From positions 1-64,000 of the forward strand of contig PGXU01000004.1 of the NCBI GenBank assembly GCA_002839335.1: a DNA stretch of 64,000 nt, read 5' to 3'. Every line of letters starts with the position of its first letter. Positions within the stretch are counted from its first letter, which is position 1. Shown here one piece after another: positions 3,316-15,086 of this stretch. The notes beneath the pieces were generated by a model. That model saw only the letters and a program-made list of their open reading frames with translations, did not search any database and was not told the DNA's origin. A program made the translations under genes and the position numbers. The DNA is from Spirochaetae bacterium HGW-Spirochaetae-4. Lineage in GTDB: Bacteria; Spirochaetota; Spirochaetia; Sphaerochaetales; Sphaerochaetaceae.

Positions 3316-4587
3316 TTATTCTAATTCTTCAAATGCTTTAGTTATAGGAGTAAGAAATAGTCCAATTGATTTATTCTGCATTAAATCCATAACATTAGAA
3401 ATATATCCCTTTTCATTAACTCTATTTGGGTCAAACACAATTGATCTAGTAGTTCTTTTCGAAATTAGATCGATATTCACTGTCTCACTTGTTGCAAGTT
3501 TTTTCCGGTCTTCATATGTCATCTTCGACAGTTCTTCTGCTTGAGTTATGTCATAACCAATACCTTCCCACATGAAAACAACAGCTCTTACTTTTCCTTC
3601 TTCTACCATGGTAGCAACTTCATTAATCATCCTATAAGCCGTGGATCTCAAGTTGGAAAAAAAAGGCTGAATAGAGTACGAATTATCATTATAAATAATG
3701 AAGAACGTTGACATCAGATTTTTCATCCCCATGCCATATAGTGGAATGTTGTAATAAATAAACCACTTATATAAATCAATATTGCTATCTAGGTTTATTG
3801 ACATGTATCTAAAGGTTTTTGTAATGTTTTCGAGTTTTTGCCTATCAATATTCAAACCGAATTTTACCATACCGACAGTGGCCGCGATGATTTTATTTTC
3901 TTTCACATGATATACATAGTCAATAATAAAAAGTATTTCGTTATTGAGTATTTCAGGTAAAAGCTTATTTATCTCCTTATCAAGCCTTTGGAGAGGTGGT
4001 GAATCGTCGCTAAGCATATTCCGTACTGAATTAAGGAATTCCCACATTGTGCGTATCCCTTTTCGAATCAAGTCTATCATATCCATATCTTCAAGACTAT
4101 TTTTATCTATTATCAAGTGTCTCACAGAAAAATTGACTTCAACTTCTGCATTGAGGGAATCCAATATGATTCGAATCGCTTTTTGAATATCTTCCTGTGG
4201 GTGATCTTCGTCATCATAAAAATATGTTCTTTTTGTGATGATTGATGATATTCCATATATTTCAAGACGAAAAAGTCGCATTAGGGAAACTGGATTTTTA
4301 TGTATTACCTGATTTCTTTTGTTGACGAACCATTTCATTTCTGGAGTAGAAAAATACTTTACATTCATTTCATGATAGATCGGGTTATTCTTTCCTTCAG
4401 GTAGATTGTTTTGTAAAACTAAGGTGATGCTTCGAAACTCGGAAAAGAAATTATCTAAATATGATGTGTTTTCAAATGAATTATTCTCTAACCTGAAATG
4501 ATTAATACTAATGAGAGCACTATAAAACTTCTGGAATGAGGAATGCGTCAGTGATTTTTGTTCTTTATTCTTTCCCTGATTTTCCAT
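3316..4587 (-). CDS. Hypothetical protein, partner of the nuclease-like gene upstream
   Basis: A 423-residue protein with no recognised domain. The ATG at 4587 is preferred over a TTG at 4614 because GAAGGA sits at proper distance before it; the TTG would also overlap the upstream gene. The protein is rich in Asn, Ile, Lys and Ser, and has no signal peptide or membrane segment. The N-terminal half looks mainly helical (about residues 15-210, with a stretch RNQVIHKNP that recalls HEPN-like or DUF4145-like proteins, weak evidence). The C-terminal half looks alpha/beta. It follows the gene at 4605-5891 by 17 bases in the same direction, so the two are probably one operon. Function unknown; a defence role is only a guess from the setting. 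Confidence 0.7.
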   Translation of the reverse strand: MENQGKNKEQKSLTHSSFQKFYSALISINHFRLENNSFENTSYLDNFFSEFRSITLVLQNNLPEGKNNPIYHEMNVKYFSTPEMKWFVNKRNQVIHKNPVSLMRLFRLEIYGISSIITKRTYFYDDEDHPQEDIQKAIRIILDSLNAEVEVNFSVRHLIIDKNSLEDMDMIDLIRKGIRTMWEFLNSVRNMLSDDSPPLQRLDKEINKLLPEILNNEILFIIDYVYHVKENKIIAATVGMVKFGLNIDRQKLENITKTFRYMSINLDSNIDLYKWFIYYNIPLYGMGMKNLMSTFFIIYNDNSYSIQPFFSNLRSTAYRMINEVATMVEEGKVRAVVFMWEGIGYDITQAEELSKMTYEDRKKLATSETVNIDLISKRTTRSIVFDPNRVNEKGYISNVMDLMQNKSIGLFLTPITKAFEELE

Positions 4588-4604
4588 GTATACTAATCCT
4601 TCAA

Positions 4605-5891
4605 TTAGAAACAAATGATTTGAGGATTTAACAGTTTTTGTTTTAAGTTTGAATTATCATTGGTAATAGGAACTACAGTCTCGATACAATCAAATATCTC
4701 ATTCTCCGGAAGAAGCAAACGTAGATTATGTAAATAAATAAAATTTATCTTCTTGTTCCTTAGGTCAAAATTTTTAAGATCACTTAAAATTCTGTTATAA
4801 TTCATTGATTCTACTTCAGCACCATTATAAGATTCGTAACATATATGAACCGATCCTACTTGTTCGTTAGGTATTTGGGAAAGAGCCCTGACAATATTCT
4901 TTTTAAAACTCACTGATTTATTCCGTATCGCTTCTATTGAATCACAATACCAAATACCCGCGTTTGCTTTTTTTACATCAGATACATAGTCAGTAATTCT
5001 ATTCCTATTCGAATATACACACATGGTAATACCATATCTTTCGTCGTCCAAACCAAATAGTCTTCTTGTAAAAGTGGGAGAATATATTTTCCATTTGTTT
5101 GCCGGTTTTTCATTTAATCCTTGAAAATCTGGTTCATTGAATTCAATTGTTATATCTTCATTATCGTACACTAGTCCATATCGGCTTTTTCCGTCGATCA
5201 TTGGTTTGAGTAAATCATATAAATAATTTTTTGGGTATGTGTTTAATTCATGATGAAATGTTATCTTGATCACTAGAGATTTTTGATGTTCTGTCAAGTA
5301 ATCTTGAATTGGCAAGTATTGTTGATACCATAATTCTCTTTCCTTTCTCGAATATTCAGATTCCTTAGTCCTTCTCTTGCACTCTATATAAAGAAAACCA
5401 TAATAATCTGCATGAATATCGGCTAATTTCTTTGATTTATCAAATAAGAATTCAATATTCGTCGCTCCATTTCGCAAATATAATCCCCCAACTAATAATT
5501 CAAAAATTGTATTTTCAAAATTAATATTATTTAGATGTAGAAGGTCTTTCATTTTTCCTGTGAATCCCTTCTGAGTGATGAATTTTGGTAATTGTTCTGA
5601 TATACGCAGTATTTTTGGAAGAGTTCTTGCCAATAATCCCAAATCACACATTTCTGGATTATGAATAAAATTAAAAATATTATATAAATACCACATAGGG
5701 ACATCTTTGGTTAAATATTGGGGAGATATGAATGTCCGGGAATTACTTTCTTTTTCAGCTAAAAATATTGGATTCTCTTTTAAATAAATATAGTTGTTCT
5801 CACAATTGGAAAAACGTCTGTTCCATTCAGTTATTGTGATTTCTGATTTACAATAGTCTAGGAAATTAGAAAGATACTTTTGATAATCCAT
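4605..5891 (-). CDS. Candidate PD-(D/E)XK nuclease-fold protein
   Basis: A 428-residue soluble protein, first gene of a two-gene unit with 3316-4587. Residues 126-175 read like a PD-(D/E)XK core: a helix with Glu131 (ENTIFELLVGGLYLR), a strand with Asp158 (KLADIHAD), and twelve residues later Glu170-Cys-Lys172 (YIECKRR). Spacing and predicted strand-helix order fit restriction-endonuclease-like folds. The rest has no recognised family. A weak Shine-Dalgarno site (cagga) precedes the ATG. It lies in an A+T-rich island among other orphan genes, consistent with a restriction-like or abortive-infection role, but only the motif is seen; nuclease activity is inference. No methyltransferase is adjacent, which argues against an ordinary type II restriction system. 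Confidence 0.6.
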   Translation of the reverse strand: MDYQKYLSNFLDYCKSEITITEWNRRFSNCENNYIYLKENPIFLAEKESNSRTFISPQYLTKDVPMWYLYNIFNFIHNPEMCDLGLLARTLPKILRISEQLPKFITQKGFTGKMKDLLHLNNINFENTIFELLVGGLYLRNGATNIEFLFDKSKKLADIHADYYGFLYIECKRRTKESEYSRKERELWYQQYLPIQDYLTEHQKSLVIKITFHHELNTYPKNYLYDLLKPMIDGKSRYGLVYDNEDITIEFNEPDFQGLNEKPANKWKIYSPTFTRRLFGLDDERYGITMCVYSNRNRITDYVSDVKKANAGIWYCDSIEAIRNKSVSFKKNIVRALSQIPNEQVGSVHICYESYNGAEVESMNYNRILSDLKNFDLRNKKINFIYLHNLRLLLPENEIFDCIETVVPITNDNSNLKQKLLNPQIICF

Positions 5892-7765: not shown

Positions 7766-8503
7766 TTATATCAATCCTGCTTTATTGTAGAGTTCTTCCA
7801 TCATAACTCGGTAATTAGTTTTAATATCGTCAATATCCTTTTTTCCAGCAGTGTAGGTAATACTGTGCGCTGAATTGTTCCCAACTTCTCTAAAAGAATT
7901 CAAATGTTTTCGTACTCGTGACGATAAATTCAAAGACTTGTTCTGTACAGCCTCCTTGACTAATCTCTCGAGCATGAAATGATTTCCTTGTTCATCTATG
8001 ATACAAGCTTCGATTTCTAGATTCTGGTATGATAGAACAAGGAGTACTTCAAATAATCTGCGCATCAAAACTGCACAACCATCGAAGCAATTATTAGAAT
8101 AGGAAAAATTTATCTGTCTGATGAGTCTATCAAGAAAGTTTCTTTTTCCACAAAATTTTGATTCTTCAAATAATTCACTATTTGATTCGATAGTTAAAGT
8201 ATCTGTCCAATTCCCAGAGAGTTCTTTCTCTAAGCTCTGGAAAATCACAGGAATAAATATTAATGTCCCTACTTTCTCTTTTGATAACAACATTATTTTA
8301 TCTTTTCCCTTGATCAGTTTATTTTTAAGACGAGTAGCATTTGGTCTATTAAATCCACAACATGTAAATAAATCTAAGATCAACGCCATTGTGAACATGG
8401 ATACATTTTTTTCCCTATAATGATAATAACAAAGGTACTTTGTACGCTCTAACTCAGTTTTATTTATTAGCTCAACTAATTCAATATAATCCAGAATCTT
8501 CAT
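7766..8503 (-). CDS. DUF4145-like (HEPN-related) protein
   Basis: A 245-residue soluble protein. The C-terminal half (about residues 125-245) resembles the DUF4145 family: a helix with RRLFEVLLVL, then a helix carrying ...SFREVGNNSAHS with the conserved Arg, Gly-Asn and His, followed by a last helix. DUF4145 and HEPN folds are often found in RNases and in partners of defence systems. The Cys-rich N-terminal half (CYYHYREKN, DLFTCCGFNRP) is unassigned. It is first in an operon with the winged-helix-like gene at 6831-7748. The ATG is preceded by a modest gagag site. The fold call is moderately sure; RNase activity is not shown. Confidence 0.65.
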   Translation of the reverse strand: MKILDYIELVELINKTELERTKYLCYYHYREKNVSMFTMALILDLFTCCGFNRPNATRLKNKLIKGKDKIMLLSKEKVGTLIFIPVIFQSLEKELSGNWTDTLTIESNSELFEESKFCGKRNFLDRLIRQINFSYSNNCFDGCAVLMRRLFEVLLVLSYQNLEIEACIIDEQGNHFMLERLVKEAVQNKSLNLSSRVRKHLNSFREVGNNSAHSITYTAGKKDIDDIKTNYRVMMEELYNKAGLI

Positions 8504-8691
8504 TTTTCTCTCTTATCAATAACTACACTTGGGCTCATTATACCATAATTTTGCTTATTACCAATGTTATGTTTAGAAATTATAAATAGATAGGTATAGA
8601 TGATTGATGAAGACGCGAACTGTAATATACCTGATGTGCGAAAAACAATTTTCTCTAGAAAGGACCAGATAGTTGGATTCCGAATATTGTA

Positions 8692-9051
8692 TCAACTGAT
8701 AATTCCCAGAATGACGTTGATTGCATTTAATTCATTTTTAGTAGCTTTTTGTAATTCATGCATGATAGCTAGCAATTCAGGCTTCATGCTTAATTTGTTA
8801 AACAAATCTACATACTCAGTAAGCTGGGAGTTCTTCCCTATCAACAACCATTCAACAGATTTTCCCAACGTGGTTGATAGTGCAACTGCGGCGTCCAGAT
8901 TAGGCAGACGAGCTGTACTTCTGCTATTCATAACAGTTCCGTAGTTGAGTTTTGCTCTTTTGCATAATTCAACCAGTGTCCATCCATGTTCTTTTTGAGC
9001 AAGTTCTACACGTCCCCAAAAATCCATGGCTTTTTCACGTTGTGTATCCAT
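8692..9051 (-). CDS. XRE-type helix-turn-helix regulator
   Basis: A 119-residue DNA-binding protein. Residues about 10-70 form a Cro/C1-type helix-turn-helix: FWGRVELAQKEHGW, TLVELCKRAKL, then YGTVMNSRS and PNLDAAVALSTTLGKSVEWLL. The C-terminal 45 residues are helical and may dimerise. This arrangement, with a Trp before the second helix and WLL after it, is common in spirochaete regulators (general knowledge). It is divergent from the secreted-protein gene at 9200 and could control it or itself. The start has no clear ribosome-binding site; an ATG eight codons further in is the alternative. Confidence 0.8.
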   Translation of the reverse strand: MDTQREKAMDFWGRVELAQKEHGWTLVELCKRAKLNYGTVMNSRSTARLPNLDAAVALSTTLGKSVEWLLIGKNSQLTEYVDLFNKLSMKPELLAIMHELQKATKNELNAINVILGIIS

Positions 9052-9766: not shown

Positions 9767-10115
9767 TTATAACTCTAACAGGCGCAAATTTGATAAGGAA
9801 TCTACAAGTATGGGTGACTATAGGATTTCGAAGCTTTCCAGTATTTGACGGATTGCCAGTAAAAACGCGCTAAGACAAACTTAGTTATGCTAAAGTATAT
9901 TCGGATACAGTTAGCACGAATGCTTCTGCTATAGCTGATTTTTCTTGGTGTGATGAGCTCATAGAAATTTTAAAAAAAAGATTCTTTTCATTGGAATTAT
10001 CAAATTGCATGAGAGTTACAGTTTTAAAATCCTTTAAAACTTTATTCCATATTTATTCAAGGAGAAAGGCTCCCTATCTTTGTATAATATTAATATAGAG
10101 TAAATGGGAGGAGTC
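9767..10115. other. Intergenic stretch, promoter-like end
   Basis: About 350 bases with no gene. Near its right end are a small hairpin-forming run (ggag...ctcc, 10061-10073) and a TATAAT box at 10083-10088. The -35 region is not clear. These could drive the gene at 10116. Confidence 0.35.
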
Positions 10116-11360
10116 ATGAAAACGGATATAGGGGAATGTGTCGGAACAAACGCTCGGAAAAAATCTGAAGAATTTCGAAGAACTGGAGCATGGCTGAATA
10201 GAGCAGTTTTCTTCAGGCACGATTATCGATTACCAGAAAATGGACTAGAAACTTTTCAAGTTGTTTTCCAACGATGTGGGATCGCTAATAGGAAAGAAAA
10301 TTGGGTAAGTTTCGAAATTCTAATTGCAAACTTAATTGCTAATAGATTAAGAAGACCTGTTAAAATCAGTCTTAATCGAAATGCCTGGAAAAAAAACCGA
10401 TACAAAGTGGTAGGTCCCCAAGTAATTAAAATTGTGTATAATCTCTCTGAATACGGATATATTCACTTGATAAAGGGCTTTAGAACAGAAGAGAAAGCTT
10501 ATTTAAGCCGAATCTGGCCAACAAAGGCACTACTAGAATATTTTCCTGAACGTAATAAAAACGTAAGATATGCCCCTGTTGAATTGGTTGAGCTGCGGGG
10601 TGACAATAAGCAATTGCTGAATTATGACGATACTGCTCAAACAAGGCGTATAAGGAAAATTCTACATAAAGTAATGGAAGTCAACCAAGATGCCGAGATA
10701 AGATTTGACGATTTCTCTCTTTCAGGTACCCTTGTAGCAATATTCAAGCGGAAATTTACGCTATATGGACGATTGCACACAAGGGGATTACATCAATATC
10801 AAGGGTTATCGGGTGAGGAACGGAAAGAGATCACTATTGATGGAGAACCTACCGTTGAATTGGATTTTCGTGGACTTCATCCTCACCTTCTCTACACCAG
10901 AGTAGGAATCCAGTACGATGGAGATCCTTATTCTGTGGTTGATCAGTGCGAAATTGTACGTCTCTTTTTAAAACAGATCTTGCTTACCCTCATCAATTCC
11001 ATAGATGAGAAGACTGCAGTGAAAGCTGCAAACTATTGGTTATATAAGAACTATGATTACTATTTAAGGTTGAAAAGATTAGGAATCACTTGTGCTAGAC
11101 CATTTATCGAAAAGTTTATTAAAACACATGAGCCAATAAGTCAATTTTTCTGCAATGGAAATGAGAATGGATTACGTATCATGAATCTAGATTCCAAAAT
11201 AGCATTGGATGTAATCAACCATTTTGTACAGCAGCGAATTCCTATTCTGGCAATTCATGATTCATTCATTGTACAGAAGCGATATGAAGCTGAATTATAT
11301 TTGACCATGAAGGTGGCATATAGAAAACATACAGGAGGCTTTAATATTGGTATAAAATGA
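10116..11360 (+). CDS. Protein with DNA polymerase A-like palm motifs
   Basis: A 414-residue protein of an unnamed family. The ATG at 10116 is chosen because gggagg lies just upstream; an ATG at 10104 would put that site inside the gene. Three motifs in the C-terminal half recall family-A DNA polymerases: motif A-like VELDFRGLHPHLLY (Asp250), a motif B-like helix RLFLKQILLTLIN (Arg282, Lys286), and motif C-like AIHDSF (His381, Asp382). The segment before motif A (RLHTRGLHQYQGLS, ERKEITIDGEPT) is typical of this orphan family as I remember it. No exonuclease domain is present and the protein is far shorter than Pol I. It may be a replication or repair enzyme of the mobile element; activity is inference. 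Confidence 0.6.
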   Translation: MKTDIGECVGTNARKKSEEFRRTGAWLNRAVFFRHDYRLPENGLETFQVVFQRCGIANRKENWVSFEILIANLIANRLRRPVKISLNRNAWKKNRYKVVGPQVIKIVYNLSEYGYIHLIKGFRTEEKAYLSRIWPTKALLEYFPERNKNVRYAPVELVELRGDNKQLLNYDDTAQTRRIRKILHKVMEVNQDAEIRFDDFSLSGTLVAIFKRKFTLYGRLHTRGLHQYQGLSGEERKEITIDGEPTVELDFRGLHPHLLYTRVGIQYDGDPYSVVDQCEIVRLFLKQILLTLINSIDEKTAVKAANYWLYKNYDYYLRLKRLGITCARPFIEKFIKTHEPISQFFCNGNENGLRIMNLDSKIALDVINHFVQQRIPILAIHDSFIVQKRYEAELYLTMKVAYRKHTGGFNIGIK

Positions 11361-12093: not shown

Positions 12094-12765
12094 ATGGATT
12101 ATGCTGTAAATGTGATTCAATTTCCAGCTCATCTAACTAAAGCCAAGAGTCGAGCCAAGCCTGGCCACGAAATCAAATATTACACCGAGAAGCAGATAAA
12201 GGCTTTGCGTAGAGTTTGTAAGGATGCTAGTTTTCTTGCAAGATCTGTAAATCAAGTAACTGGTGTTAGGGAATGGATCGTGGTTGATGTTCTCACAAGT
12301 ACAGGAATGAGGGTTTCTGAATGTGCTGATCTCAGGTGTGGAGATCTCCGCACTGCTTATGGTGATTCGGAATTGGTAATTAGAAATGGAAAAGGCCGTA
12401 AGTCGAGGATAGTGCAGATACCTGAAAGTTTGAAAATACACTTGAAAAGTTATCTTAGATGGAAGGTTGATAAAGGGGAGCCAATCGATACTAACGATTA
12501 TCTTTTCTTAGGTCAGCGTGGTGCCATGACTGATCAAGCAATCCAACAGATCGTTAAAAAGTATTTAAAACTGCTCGGTATTTATGAGAATGGTAAATCC
12601 GTTCATGCTTTGAGGCATAGCTATGCAGTTGAGTATTATAGGAAAACAAAGGACTTGCGAGGATTACAGAAACAACTTGGGCATGTTAGTATTCAGAATA
12701 CTCAGATTTATGCAGATGTAAGCAAAGAAGATATTCAGGAAAATATAAAAGGACTATGGGGGTAG
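12094..12765 (+). CDS. Short tyrosine recombinase (catalytic domain only)
   Basis: A 223-residue site-specific recombinase of the lambda-integrase superfamily. The catalytic set is complete: Arg73 (STGMRVSE), Lys100 (NGKGRKSR), His171 and Arg174 (HALRHSYA), His197 (LGHVSIQNT) and the nucleophile Tyr206 (QIYADVS). The usual N-terminal core-binding (SAM-like) domain is missing; only about 60 residues precede the catalytic domain, against about 100 or more in XerC/D-like enzymes. A strong ribosome-binding site (aaggaggag) fixes the start, so this is not a truncated reading. A ribbon-helix-helix gene follows after three bases. It may act on the element or on plasmids. Activity is likely; the target is unknown. 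Confidence 0.85.
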   Translation: MDYAVNVIQFPAHLTKAKSRAKPGHEIKYYTEKQIKALRRVCKDASFLARSVNQVTGVREWIVVDVLTSTGMRVSECADLRCGDLRTAYGDSELVIRNGKGRKSRIVQIPESLKIHLKSYLRWKVDKGEPIDTNDYLFLGQRGAMTDQAIQQIVKKYLKLLGIYENGKSVHALRHSYAVEYYRKTKDLRGLQKQLGHVSIQNTQIYADVSKEDIQENIKGLWG

Positions 12766-13015: not shown

Positions 13016-13432
13016 TTGAAATCATATAGAAAGGAATTATTCTTTGACATTAAGAAACGAAGAGAATTCATCAATATTTCTCAAATGGTAAAGGAGTGTC
13101 TTGTTGAAAGTAAAATCACCGAGGGCTTGATACTCGTAAACGCGATGCACATTACCTCGAGCGTCTTTATCAATGATGATGAGTCCGGTCTGCATCATGA
13201 CTTTGAACAATGGCTGGAGAAATTGGCACCTGAGAAGCCATATAACCAATACCATCATAATGGATATGAAGACAACGCAGATGCTCATTTGAAACGGACT
13301 GTCATGGGAAGGGAAGTGGTAGTTGCCGTTACCAAAGGTGCTTTGGATTTCGGGCCTTGGGAACAGATTTTCTATGGTGAATTTGACGGAAAAAGAAAAA
13401 AACGTGTCTTGGTAAAAATTATTGGAGAATAG
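13016..13432 (+). CDS. yjbQ: YjbQ/UPF0047 family protein, complete copy carried by the element
   Basis: A 138-residue UPF0047 protein, full length for the family. It starts at TTG 13016 behind a strong aggagg site. Conserved features are [33 protein letters not shown] and [16 protein letters not shown]. coli YjbQ has been reported to have thiamine-phosphate-synthase activity; the cellular role is unsettled. The gene lies just before the serine recombinase, with its stop only two bases from a G tract. The element's right end breaks a second yjbQ at 14983-15123 on the other strand. The two copies share the N-terminal pattern MKS-RKEL but differ widely in DNA, so this is not a recent duplicate. 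It probably replaces the broken resident gene. Confidence 0.85.
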
Positions 13433-13434
13433 AA

Positions 13435-13444
13435 GGGGGGGGGG
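13435..13444 (+). repeat. Ten-base G tract in the recombinase ribosome-binding site
   Basis: Ten consecutive G residues start two bases after the yjbQ stop and end one base before the recombinase ATG at 13446. The tract overlaps the Shine-Dalgarno region, so slippage would change spacing between the ribosome-binding site and the start. Confidence 0.8.
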
Positions 13445-13445
13445 T

Positions 13446-15086
13446 ATGATTCTACGATTTGCTCCACTAATAAGGGTTTCAACAGAAAGCCAAGCTAATA
13501 TAGGTGAATCTCTTCGGACCCAGACTGCACAAATCCAGCAATATGTTAAATCCTTGAATGGAATGATCCCTGAGAATTGCATTGTATATTCTGGTCAGGA
13601 ACACGCCACCCCTGAGGTTGAAAGGAAAAAACTTGATCAATTACTTATTGACTCATCTATGGACAAGTTTGATGCTGTTATAGTTTGTGATACCAGTAGG
13701 TGGTCAAGGGACAATCTGAAATCCAAGGAAGGGTTGAATATCCTGCGAAATAATGGGATTAGATTCTTTGTTGGAACTATGGAGTTTGACCTATACAACC
13801 CTGAGCATAACTTTATTCTAGGCATGAGTGCCGAAGTTGGCGAATTACAGGCAAGACAACAATCATTGAAATCGATAACGAACCGGATTGAAAGAGCGAG
13901 AAGAGGGATTCCAACTAGTGGAAAGCTTCCTTATGGTCGTACGTATAACAAAGACACCAACCAATGGGGTATCGATTCCGAGAAGCAAAAGAAAATCCAA
14001 TGGGCTGCCGAACAATATCTAAGCGGAATATCCATTGTGGAGATATCCAAAATTATCGGAATGAACTTTTCAAATCTATGGAAGATTCTTACTAAAAGGT
14101 CAGGGTCTGATTGGCAAATGCAATTTCGTAATGCAAAGCTGAATATCGACGAAACGGTGACAGTGAAAATTCCACCATTGTTAGGCGAAGAGACTTTAGC
14201 GGCAATCAAGCAACAGGGAAGTGCGAATCGGACTTATCACCATGGAGAGATTAAGCATAAGTACCTTCTATCGAGAATGGTCTTTTGTAAACATTGTGGA
14301 TATGCTCTATCTGCCCAAACAAACCACTCAGAAATCCAGTATTTCCGGCATCCTAGGGATCGTAAGAATGAGTGTGATGTTACAAATTGGGTACCGGCTC
14401 AGCCACTTGGAGAAGCTGTGCTTGTAGCGTTGTTCCAAATGTTTGGAGATGTTGAAAGAATTGAAAGAGCAGTACAAAAAGCCCTTCCTGATTTCTCCAA
14501 GATACAACAGATTCAGGATGAGCTTGCAGAATTACAAAAGAAACAACAGGAACTGCTCCAACAGAGAGAGCGACTTGTTAAATTAGCATCAGAAGGATCT
14601 TTGACAGATGATGAAATCACGAAACAAATCAAAGATATCAGAGAGCGTTTACAAGCGATTCAAAGTCGAATTGATTCCCTAGAATCACAGATAGTTAACC
14701 AACCAAGCATGGATCAGATCAAGAAGAAATCCATACTTGCTAGAAATGTTTTAATTGATGCGTTGAAAAACCCAGGACCAAAAGCTATTGAGAAAATTCT
14801 ATCTGCTCCATATGAGAAACAAAGGGCAATAATTGAAAGAGCGTTTTCAGGCAAGGATATCAATGGTAATAGACTAGGAGTCTATGTTGAGAGAACTGAT
14901 GATCCTGAGAAGCCATGGAGGTTTGAAATACGGGCTATTCTTGACCAGATAGTAGAGTTCTATGCAAAGGAAGATTCTAAAACTAGTTTGTCATGGTATT
15001 CACCAGGACCAATCCTTCCCGTACACCGCTATCGATTACCGCTTCCTGCACCTTTTGTGTTATGTTCACCAAGCCTCGTCTGGTAG
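13446..15086 (+). CDS. Large serine recombinase (integrase of the element)
   Basis: A 546-residue large serine recombinase. The ATG at 13446 follows the G tract and gives the normal N-terminus with catalytic Ser12 (LIRVSTESQ). The resolvase domain spans about residues 5-155 (with CDTSRWSRD and the end of the E helix at about 130). A Recombinase domain covers about 160-270. A zinc ribbon begins CKHCGYALS with later Cys in NECDV, and a long coiled coil lies at about 365-430 ([14 protein letters not shown]). The last 31 residues (from SWYSPGPIL) are read from the antisense of the chromosomal yjbQ fragment, so they are not native to the element. The gene therefore crosses the attachment site. Role: integration and excision of the island. 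Family call very sure. Confidence 0.93.

Follow-up and report, generated by a model that had tools for sequence, protein, structure and literature searches.

Two neighboring genes near the left end of the window, by which we mean the whole 64,000-nt stretch analyzed here (contig PGXU01000004.1 of Spirochaetae bacterium HGW-Spirochaetae-4), raise the question of whether they act jointly as a defense system or whether a nuclease and a separate protein happen to share an operon. A preliminary description of the DNA proposed a new two-component system, in which gene 1 encodes a candidate PD-(D/E)XK nuclease and gene 2 an orphan protein of similar size, with no methylase nearby.

The gene pair and its island

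Both open reading frames of the preliminary description were found in place, with gene 2 downstream of gene 1 on the same strand (Table 1). The ATG of gene 2 is more likely to be its start than the TTG of the longer listed ORF, because a Shine-Dalgarno-like GAAGGA precedes this ATG. The spacing between the stop codon of gene 1 and the ATG is 17 nt, and a scan of the intergenic sequence identified no terminator-like site. Promoter-like matches numbered 13, compared with a mean of 23.5 in shuffled sequence, which makes the scan uninformative on promoters. Most simply, the 2 genes would constitute a single operon with a shared transcript.

Up to ~12 kb, the window has a G+C content of 31% to 33%, versus about 47% to 57% from 16 kb on, and gene 1 shares this low-G+C island with genes for an integrase and a serine recombinase, inside a stretch of ~52% G+C. 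The contig starts at base 1 of the window and the island is visible on its right side only; the HD-CE/HSP90-like ATPase protein has probably lost its N-terminus at the contig end. In line with the preliminary description, a Pfam scan of island ORFs identified no methylase; the ORFs scanned represent a subset, on an island cut by the contig edge. It was also noted that a protein of 418 amino acids encoded at 10104-11360 on the plus strand, for which no Pfam, PADLOC, or NCBIfam match was obtained, contains the sequences VELDFRGLHPHLLY and ILAIHDSF, which we take to suggest a phage-type polymerase-like enzyme.

Table 1. Positions of the gene pair, the putative active-site codons and other island features in the window
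Feature	Position	Strand	Description
Gene 1	4605-5891	minus	ATG start, 428 aa; putative PD-(D/E)XK nuclease; family uncurated, phrog_37220-like
Glu131 codon	5499-5501	minus	Predicted helix 125-140, ahead of the core strands; 16/16 homologs
Asp158 codon	5418-5420	minus	Predicted strand 157-162 (second core strand); 16/16 homologs; aligns to Asp of AF1548
Glu170-Cys171-Lys172 codons	5376-5384	minus	Predicted strand 167-173 (third core strand), E-x-K; 16/16 homologs; aligns to Glu-Cys-Lys of AF1548
GAAGGA, Shine-Dalgarno-like	4597-4602	minus	Inside the 17-nt gap, 5' of the gene 2 ATG; read from the sequence
Gene 2	3316-4587	minus	423 aa from ATG 4585-4587; orphan protein, probably an accessory rather than an obligate partner
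Gene 2, listed ORF	3316-4614	minus	TTG start, 432 aa (alternative start)
HD-CE/HSP90-like ATPase protein	10-2100	plus	Pfam HD-CE, E 2.5e-35
DUF4145-like protein	7766-8503		Island; Pfam scan
Tyrosine integrase	12094-12765		Island
Serine recombinase	13422-15086		Island

The nuclease signature of gene 1

Gene 1 was originally called a candidate nuclease on account of Glu131, Asp158, and Glu170-X-Lys172, which we located at precisely these residues in the sequence contexts F-E131-L, D158, and E170-C-K172-R. To judge from an alignment of 16 members, from which the near-identical sequences L010, L014, L015, and L020 and the truncated L021 were omitted and in which the close copies L026/L027 (99%) and L009/L016/L017 (92% to 95%) were kept, the 4 residues are the same in all 16 homologs, as are C171 and R173. 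The invariant columns, 22 in number, also include F130, and further invariant residues are found in the C-terminal part (W314, Q339, P341, H349, G357, and E404). Since the motif is preserved in homologs that are only 20% to 33% identical to the window protein in one comparison and 19% to 33% in another, chance is ruled out as its explanation on the evidence of the alignment.

A fold model of gene 1 built from an alignment of 8 rows was of mediocre quality, with a mean pLDDT of 63 and values of only 48 to 74 around the active site. The predicted elements are a helix at residues 125-140, strands at 145-149, 157-162, and 167-173, a second helix at 182-201, and a final strand at 206-212. This corresponds to the order α-β-β-β-α-β, which is that of the PD-(D/E)XK core, with D158 on strand 2 and E170-x-K172 on strand 3 of the predicted model, an order of elements that would bring D158, E170, and K172 together in space. 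The strand-helix context that had been described as typical of nucleases is consistent with the predicted core, although a local pLDDT of 48 to 74 makes this support weak.

No match at E ≤ 0.001 was obtained when the gene 1 model was compared with the PDB using Foldseek. The top rows of the VIA comparison were central domains of acetyl-CoA carboxylase (17 of 50 rows, Z 7.3 to 10.1), below which ranked nuclease rows, among them PaqCI at Z 7.9 (127 residues at an rmsd of 3.9), NucC at Z 5.8 (119 residues at an rmsd of 3.7), the small subunit of R.BspD6I (Z 5.5), Cdn1 (Z 4.8), Hachiman (Z 4.8), and MspJI (Z 4.7), where Z values of this size are flagged by the tool as common. Altogether, 12 of the 50 rows are what we take to be PD-(D/E)XK nucleases, and nothing follows from other folds being missing from the list. 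Kinship with acetyl-CoA carboxylase was rejected on the grounds that the aligned identity was 6% to 11%, that Foldseek gave no match at the above threshold, and that the invariant E-x-K would be left unexplained; we regard the likeness as a shared arrangement.

The window protein could not be placed in a known defense family, as it has no match in Pfam or PADLOC (E ≤ 1) or in NCBIfam. Among the 16 members of the alignment, 5 weakly matched Mrr_cat (PF04471; best E 0.023) and 4 weakly matched AHJR-like REase (PF18743; best E 0.0092), while the other 5 Pfam families listed were matched by one member each. In single scans of L006, L007, and L010, the Mrr_cat/AHJR-like matches spanned the D...E-x-K region with 12.6 to 16.4 bits, which is below the Pfam gathering cut-offs of 21 and 26.1. 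Gene 1 differs from both families in that the window protein matches neither, and no match was obtained for the N- and C-terminal parts. The best PDB match of the family profile, with an E-value of only 0.23, was 1y88 (AF1548, 199 aa), an Mrr-like PD-(D/E)XK protein whose Asp and Glu-Cys-Lys fall on the motif in the alignment. When sequence profiles of gene 1 (A10) and gene 2 (A5) were compared with the PDB, the matches were at chance level only. In PADLOC-DB 2.0.0, the candidate models PDC-M15A and PDC-S02 were matched by one of the 16 members each (E 0.0042 and 0.0084, respectively), and none of the component models was matched by gene 1 or gene 2 of the window at E ≤ 1. The invariant motif, the predicted secondary structure, and the convergent, if weak and sub-threshold, profile matches to Mrr_cat and AHJR-like REase nevertheless agree in favoring the PD-(D/E)XK assignment of the preliminary description.

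The closest known group was phrog_37220 in PHROGs v4, the function of which is unannotated, and which matched the window protein with an E-value of 4.5e-17. The homolog in phage 899 matched this group over positions 1 to 461 of 461, and hence belongs to the same family as gene 1, although the phage-type members are only 20% to 22% identical to the window protein, which is without their C-terminal tail. A literature search by accession and PHROG names identified no paper on the family, which in the libraries searched is known only as this unnamed PHROG.

Gene 2 and its pairing with gene 1

Gene 2 was confirmed to be an orphan. No match was obtained in Pfam or PADLOC at E ≤ 1, and the single match in NCBIfam (E 0.2) and the 2 matches in PHROG (E 0.13 and 0.22) were insignificant. 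The fold model, which was built from 2 sequences and had a mean pLDDT of 54, gave nothing at E ≤ 0.001 in Foldseek, and the VIA comparison returned mainly helical-bundle rows from unrelated proteins, which are a basis for no inference. We noted that the window protein contains RNQVIH, which fits the R-x4-H motif of HEPN RNases, but the relative in locus L013 reads RNSTTK at this site and is missing the histidine, so that a HEPN RNase reading of gene 2 is not supported.

Only 2 relatives of gene 2 were found, one in genome G091 (53% identity) and one, from the genome_contigs search, in locus L013 of the uncultured Clostridium genome G517 (31% identity). None was identified in plasmids, phages, or viral contigs, the last of which were searched after a pattern pre-filter, nor, its own genome aside, among 392 genomes of the phylum or, G517 itself aside, among 191 relatives of G517. 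In G091 (locus L005), gene 2 is located 211 nt downstream of hsdM-hsdS-hsdR, whereas in L013 it shares its strand with the genes that precede it, namely matches to MzaB/C/D/E, a C5 methylase, and an HTH-Fic gene. The gene is a listed component of neither type I restriction-modification nor MzaABCDE, and in the latter setting the HTH-Fic gene stands between it and the MzaBCDE-methylase genes. In 3 of 3 loci, a restriction-type gene set thus lies upstream of gene 2 in the same orientation, which with 3 cases only may be considered a lead.

To determine co-occurrence, all ORFs of 50 or more amino acids in the collected loci were scanned with a profile of gene 2. Gene 2 accompanied gene 1 in the window and in none of the 20 other gene 1 loci, several of which are near-identical, and 3 of which (L017, L018, and L027) contain less than 0.7 kb of upstream DNA. 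Conversely, gene 1 was present in neither of the other genomes with gene 2, G091 and G517, each of which was searched in full. In everything found, the pairs do not co-occur, an outcome that the preliminary description had itself named as refuting its proposal and that argues against a fixed two-gene system.

A true two-component system, in which gene 2 acts as a sensor of infection or as a gate on the nuclease and the 2 proteins function jointly in this lineage only, would nonetheless account for the shared strand, the 17-nt gap, the Shine-Dalgarno-like site, and the comparable lengths of the 2 genes, and also for the recurrent position of gene 2 behind a restriction-type set. Such a lineage-confined pairing may exist, given that only 3 gene 2 loci are known. 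However, the counts of 0 of 20 and 0 of 2 speak against it, as does the fact that the homologs of gene 1 on phages and plasmids are complete single genes, and we consider a joint system rather unlikely. The proposed two-gene system is thereby struck off, and gene 2 may serve several restriction systems as an accessory.

Most likely, gene 2 represents a separate and rare accessory that is optional rather than a fixed partner of gene 1. Its 3 settings are unrelated, namely a putative lone PD-(D/E)XK nuclease, a type I hsdMSR set, and an MzaBCDE-methylase cluster. A more specific suggestion, that gene 2 is an undescribed interchangeable accessory of restriction systems, either a guard that senses inhibition of restriction or a regulator of the nuclease, strikes us as quite doubtful.

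Distribution, neighbors, and putative role of gene 1

Among 196 related genomes, gene 1 was present in 2, of which one is its own and the other contains a homolog with 35% identity, and in the phylum, the gene was found in one of 392 genomes, which is that of the window. The only homolog in the class of the window is that of G160, where a DUF6119 gene is adjoining, and among 198 relatives of G160 it was found in G160 itself only. One further search for homologs returned just the query locus. Outside these groups, homologs were identified in 60 plasmid records, in one phage record, and in viral contigs, although scans of viral contigs with gene 1 of the window, A3, and A4 as queries gave no homolog. 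With the phage 899 homolog as query, a relative was found in 46 of 5,426 complete genomes of E. coli, 42 of which cover at least 80% of the query.

Two homologs on Agrobacterium and Rhizobium plasmids, at 6932-8299 in L022 and at 6815-8155 in L024, have been deposited as "transposase," which is probably a misannotation. It was also observed that the truncated homolog at 8001-8824 in the IncA plasmid L021 adjoins a Tn3-family transposase and a class 1 integron.

The neighborhoods were examined in 7 of the 60 plasmid records, within ~7 kb of the homolog. Five of the 7 contained defense genes: Gabija in L008 (GajA, E 2e-217; GajB, E 0), Gabija-like genes in L011, SspB/SspC in L022, a TIR-APAZ short Argonaute gene in L023, and dndBCDE, according to the annotation, in L024. 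In L007, an annotated restriction endonuclease was located 5.6 kb away, and in L009 the sole candidate was an annotated class I SAM-dependent methyltransferase with an unannotated target. Stretches of these 7 plasmids away from the gene, taken as controls, contained no annotated restriction-modification, Dnd, Ssp, Argonaute, or Gabija genes, a contrast that is small and indicative, as the test side was scored partly by PADLOC and the controls by annotation alone; one control stretch contained a DUF262 protein and another a HEPN protein along with a toxin-antitoxin pair. Gabija, Ssp, Dnd, and the TIR-APAZ short Argonaute are thus recurrent neighbors that vary from locus to locus, and gene 1 and gene 2 differ from them in that neither has a PADLOC match at E ≤ 1. 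What speaks for the defense role suggested in the preliminary description is this neighborhood; a match of either protein to a known defense model was not obtained.

In the P2-like phage 899 and in an E. coli prophage, the gene 1 homolog is cargo between the genes for tail-fibre assembly and the tail sheath. This position differs from the P2 cargo hotspot, which PMC9122126 places at gpA-gpQ. In the P2-like phage and the prophage (L010 8525-9571 and L020 9666-10712), the putative nuclease gene is followed by a DUF3800 gene.

We consider it probable that gene 1 is a stand-alone PD-(D/E)XK DNA endonuclease, Mrr/AHJR-like, that provides defense without a methylase, and that gene 2 is an independent accessory. 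The 2 genes, the invariant motif, the missing co-occurrence, and the mobile and defense-rich surroundings are direct observations, and we infer DNA cleavage by gene 1, its trigger, the shared transcript, and any role of gene 2. The protein would consist of a helical N-terminal part, a nuclease core at residues ~118-212, and a conserved C-terminal part, and it would cut incoming phage or plasmid DNA without needing a cognate methylase. Because a solitary nuclease of the restriction type has to leave its host unharmed, the enzyme would either recognize a mark or a structure that the host does not have, in a type IV-like manner, or be switched on by infection. The sequence appears to fit both modes alike, and the phosphorothioation systems near the homolog in 2 of the 7 plasmids (L022 and L024) are compatible with either. 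Gene 2 would be expressed from the same operon as an independent accessory, which elsewhere accompanies other restriction modules. Solitary PD-(D/E)XK defense nucleases are a kind already known; here, a "hypothetical protein" with relatives in E. coli and on plasmids becomes a candidate for this kind, with the homolog in a P2-like E. coli phage as a convenient representative.

That a solitary nuclease without a methylase needs some restraint, and that the genes are arranged as an operon, could also point to a toxin-like or abortive enzyme, which attacks the DNA of its own cell and is held back by gene 2 or another factor. This seems to us quite unlikely, as the homologs occur singly with no obvious adjoining antidote, and gene 2 showed no antitoxin-like features. 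It is very improbable that gene 1 is a transposition or integration nuclease similar to TnsA, itself a PD-(D/E)XK enzyme, rather than a defense gene, since despite the "transposase" annotation of 2 homologs and the many homologs on mobile elements, no transposase partner recurs beside them and their sites are varied, including a P2-like phage, conjugative plasmids, and prophages.

Returning to the neighbors of the putative stand-alone nuclease, DUF4145-like genes were noted upstream of gene 1 homologs in 3 loci, the window, L006 (4947-5672), and L025 (4949-5653), where the window copy was called by a Pfam scan and the other 2 by eye. Because DUF4145 is common in defense islands, this proximity may be due to chance. 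In the viral contig L019 (4576-13216), the gene 1 homolog is followed by an AAA ATPase gene and a subtilase-like gene, and other genes on this contig, including those for a Zot-like ATPase and a secretin, resemble genes of filamentous phages by eye.
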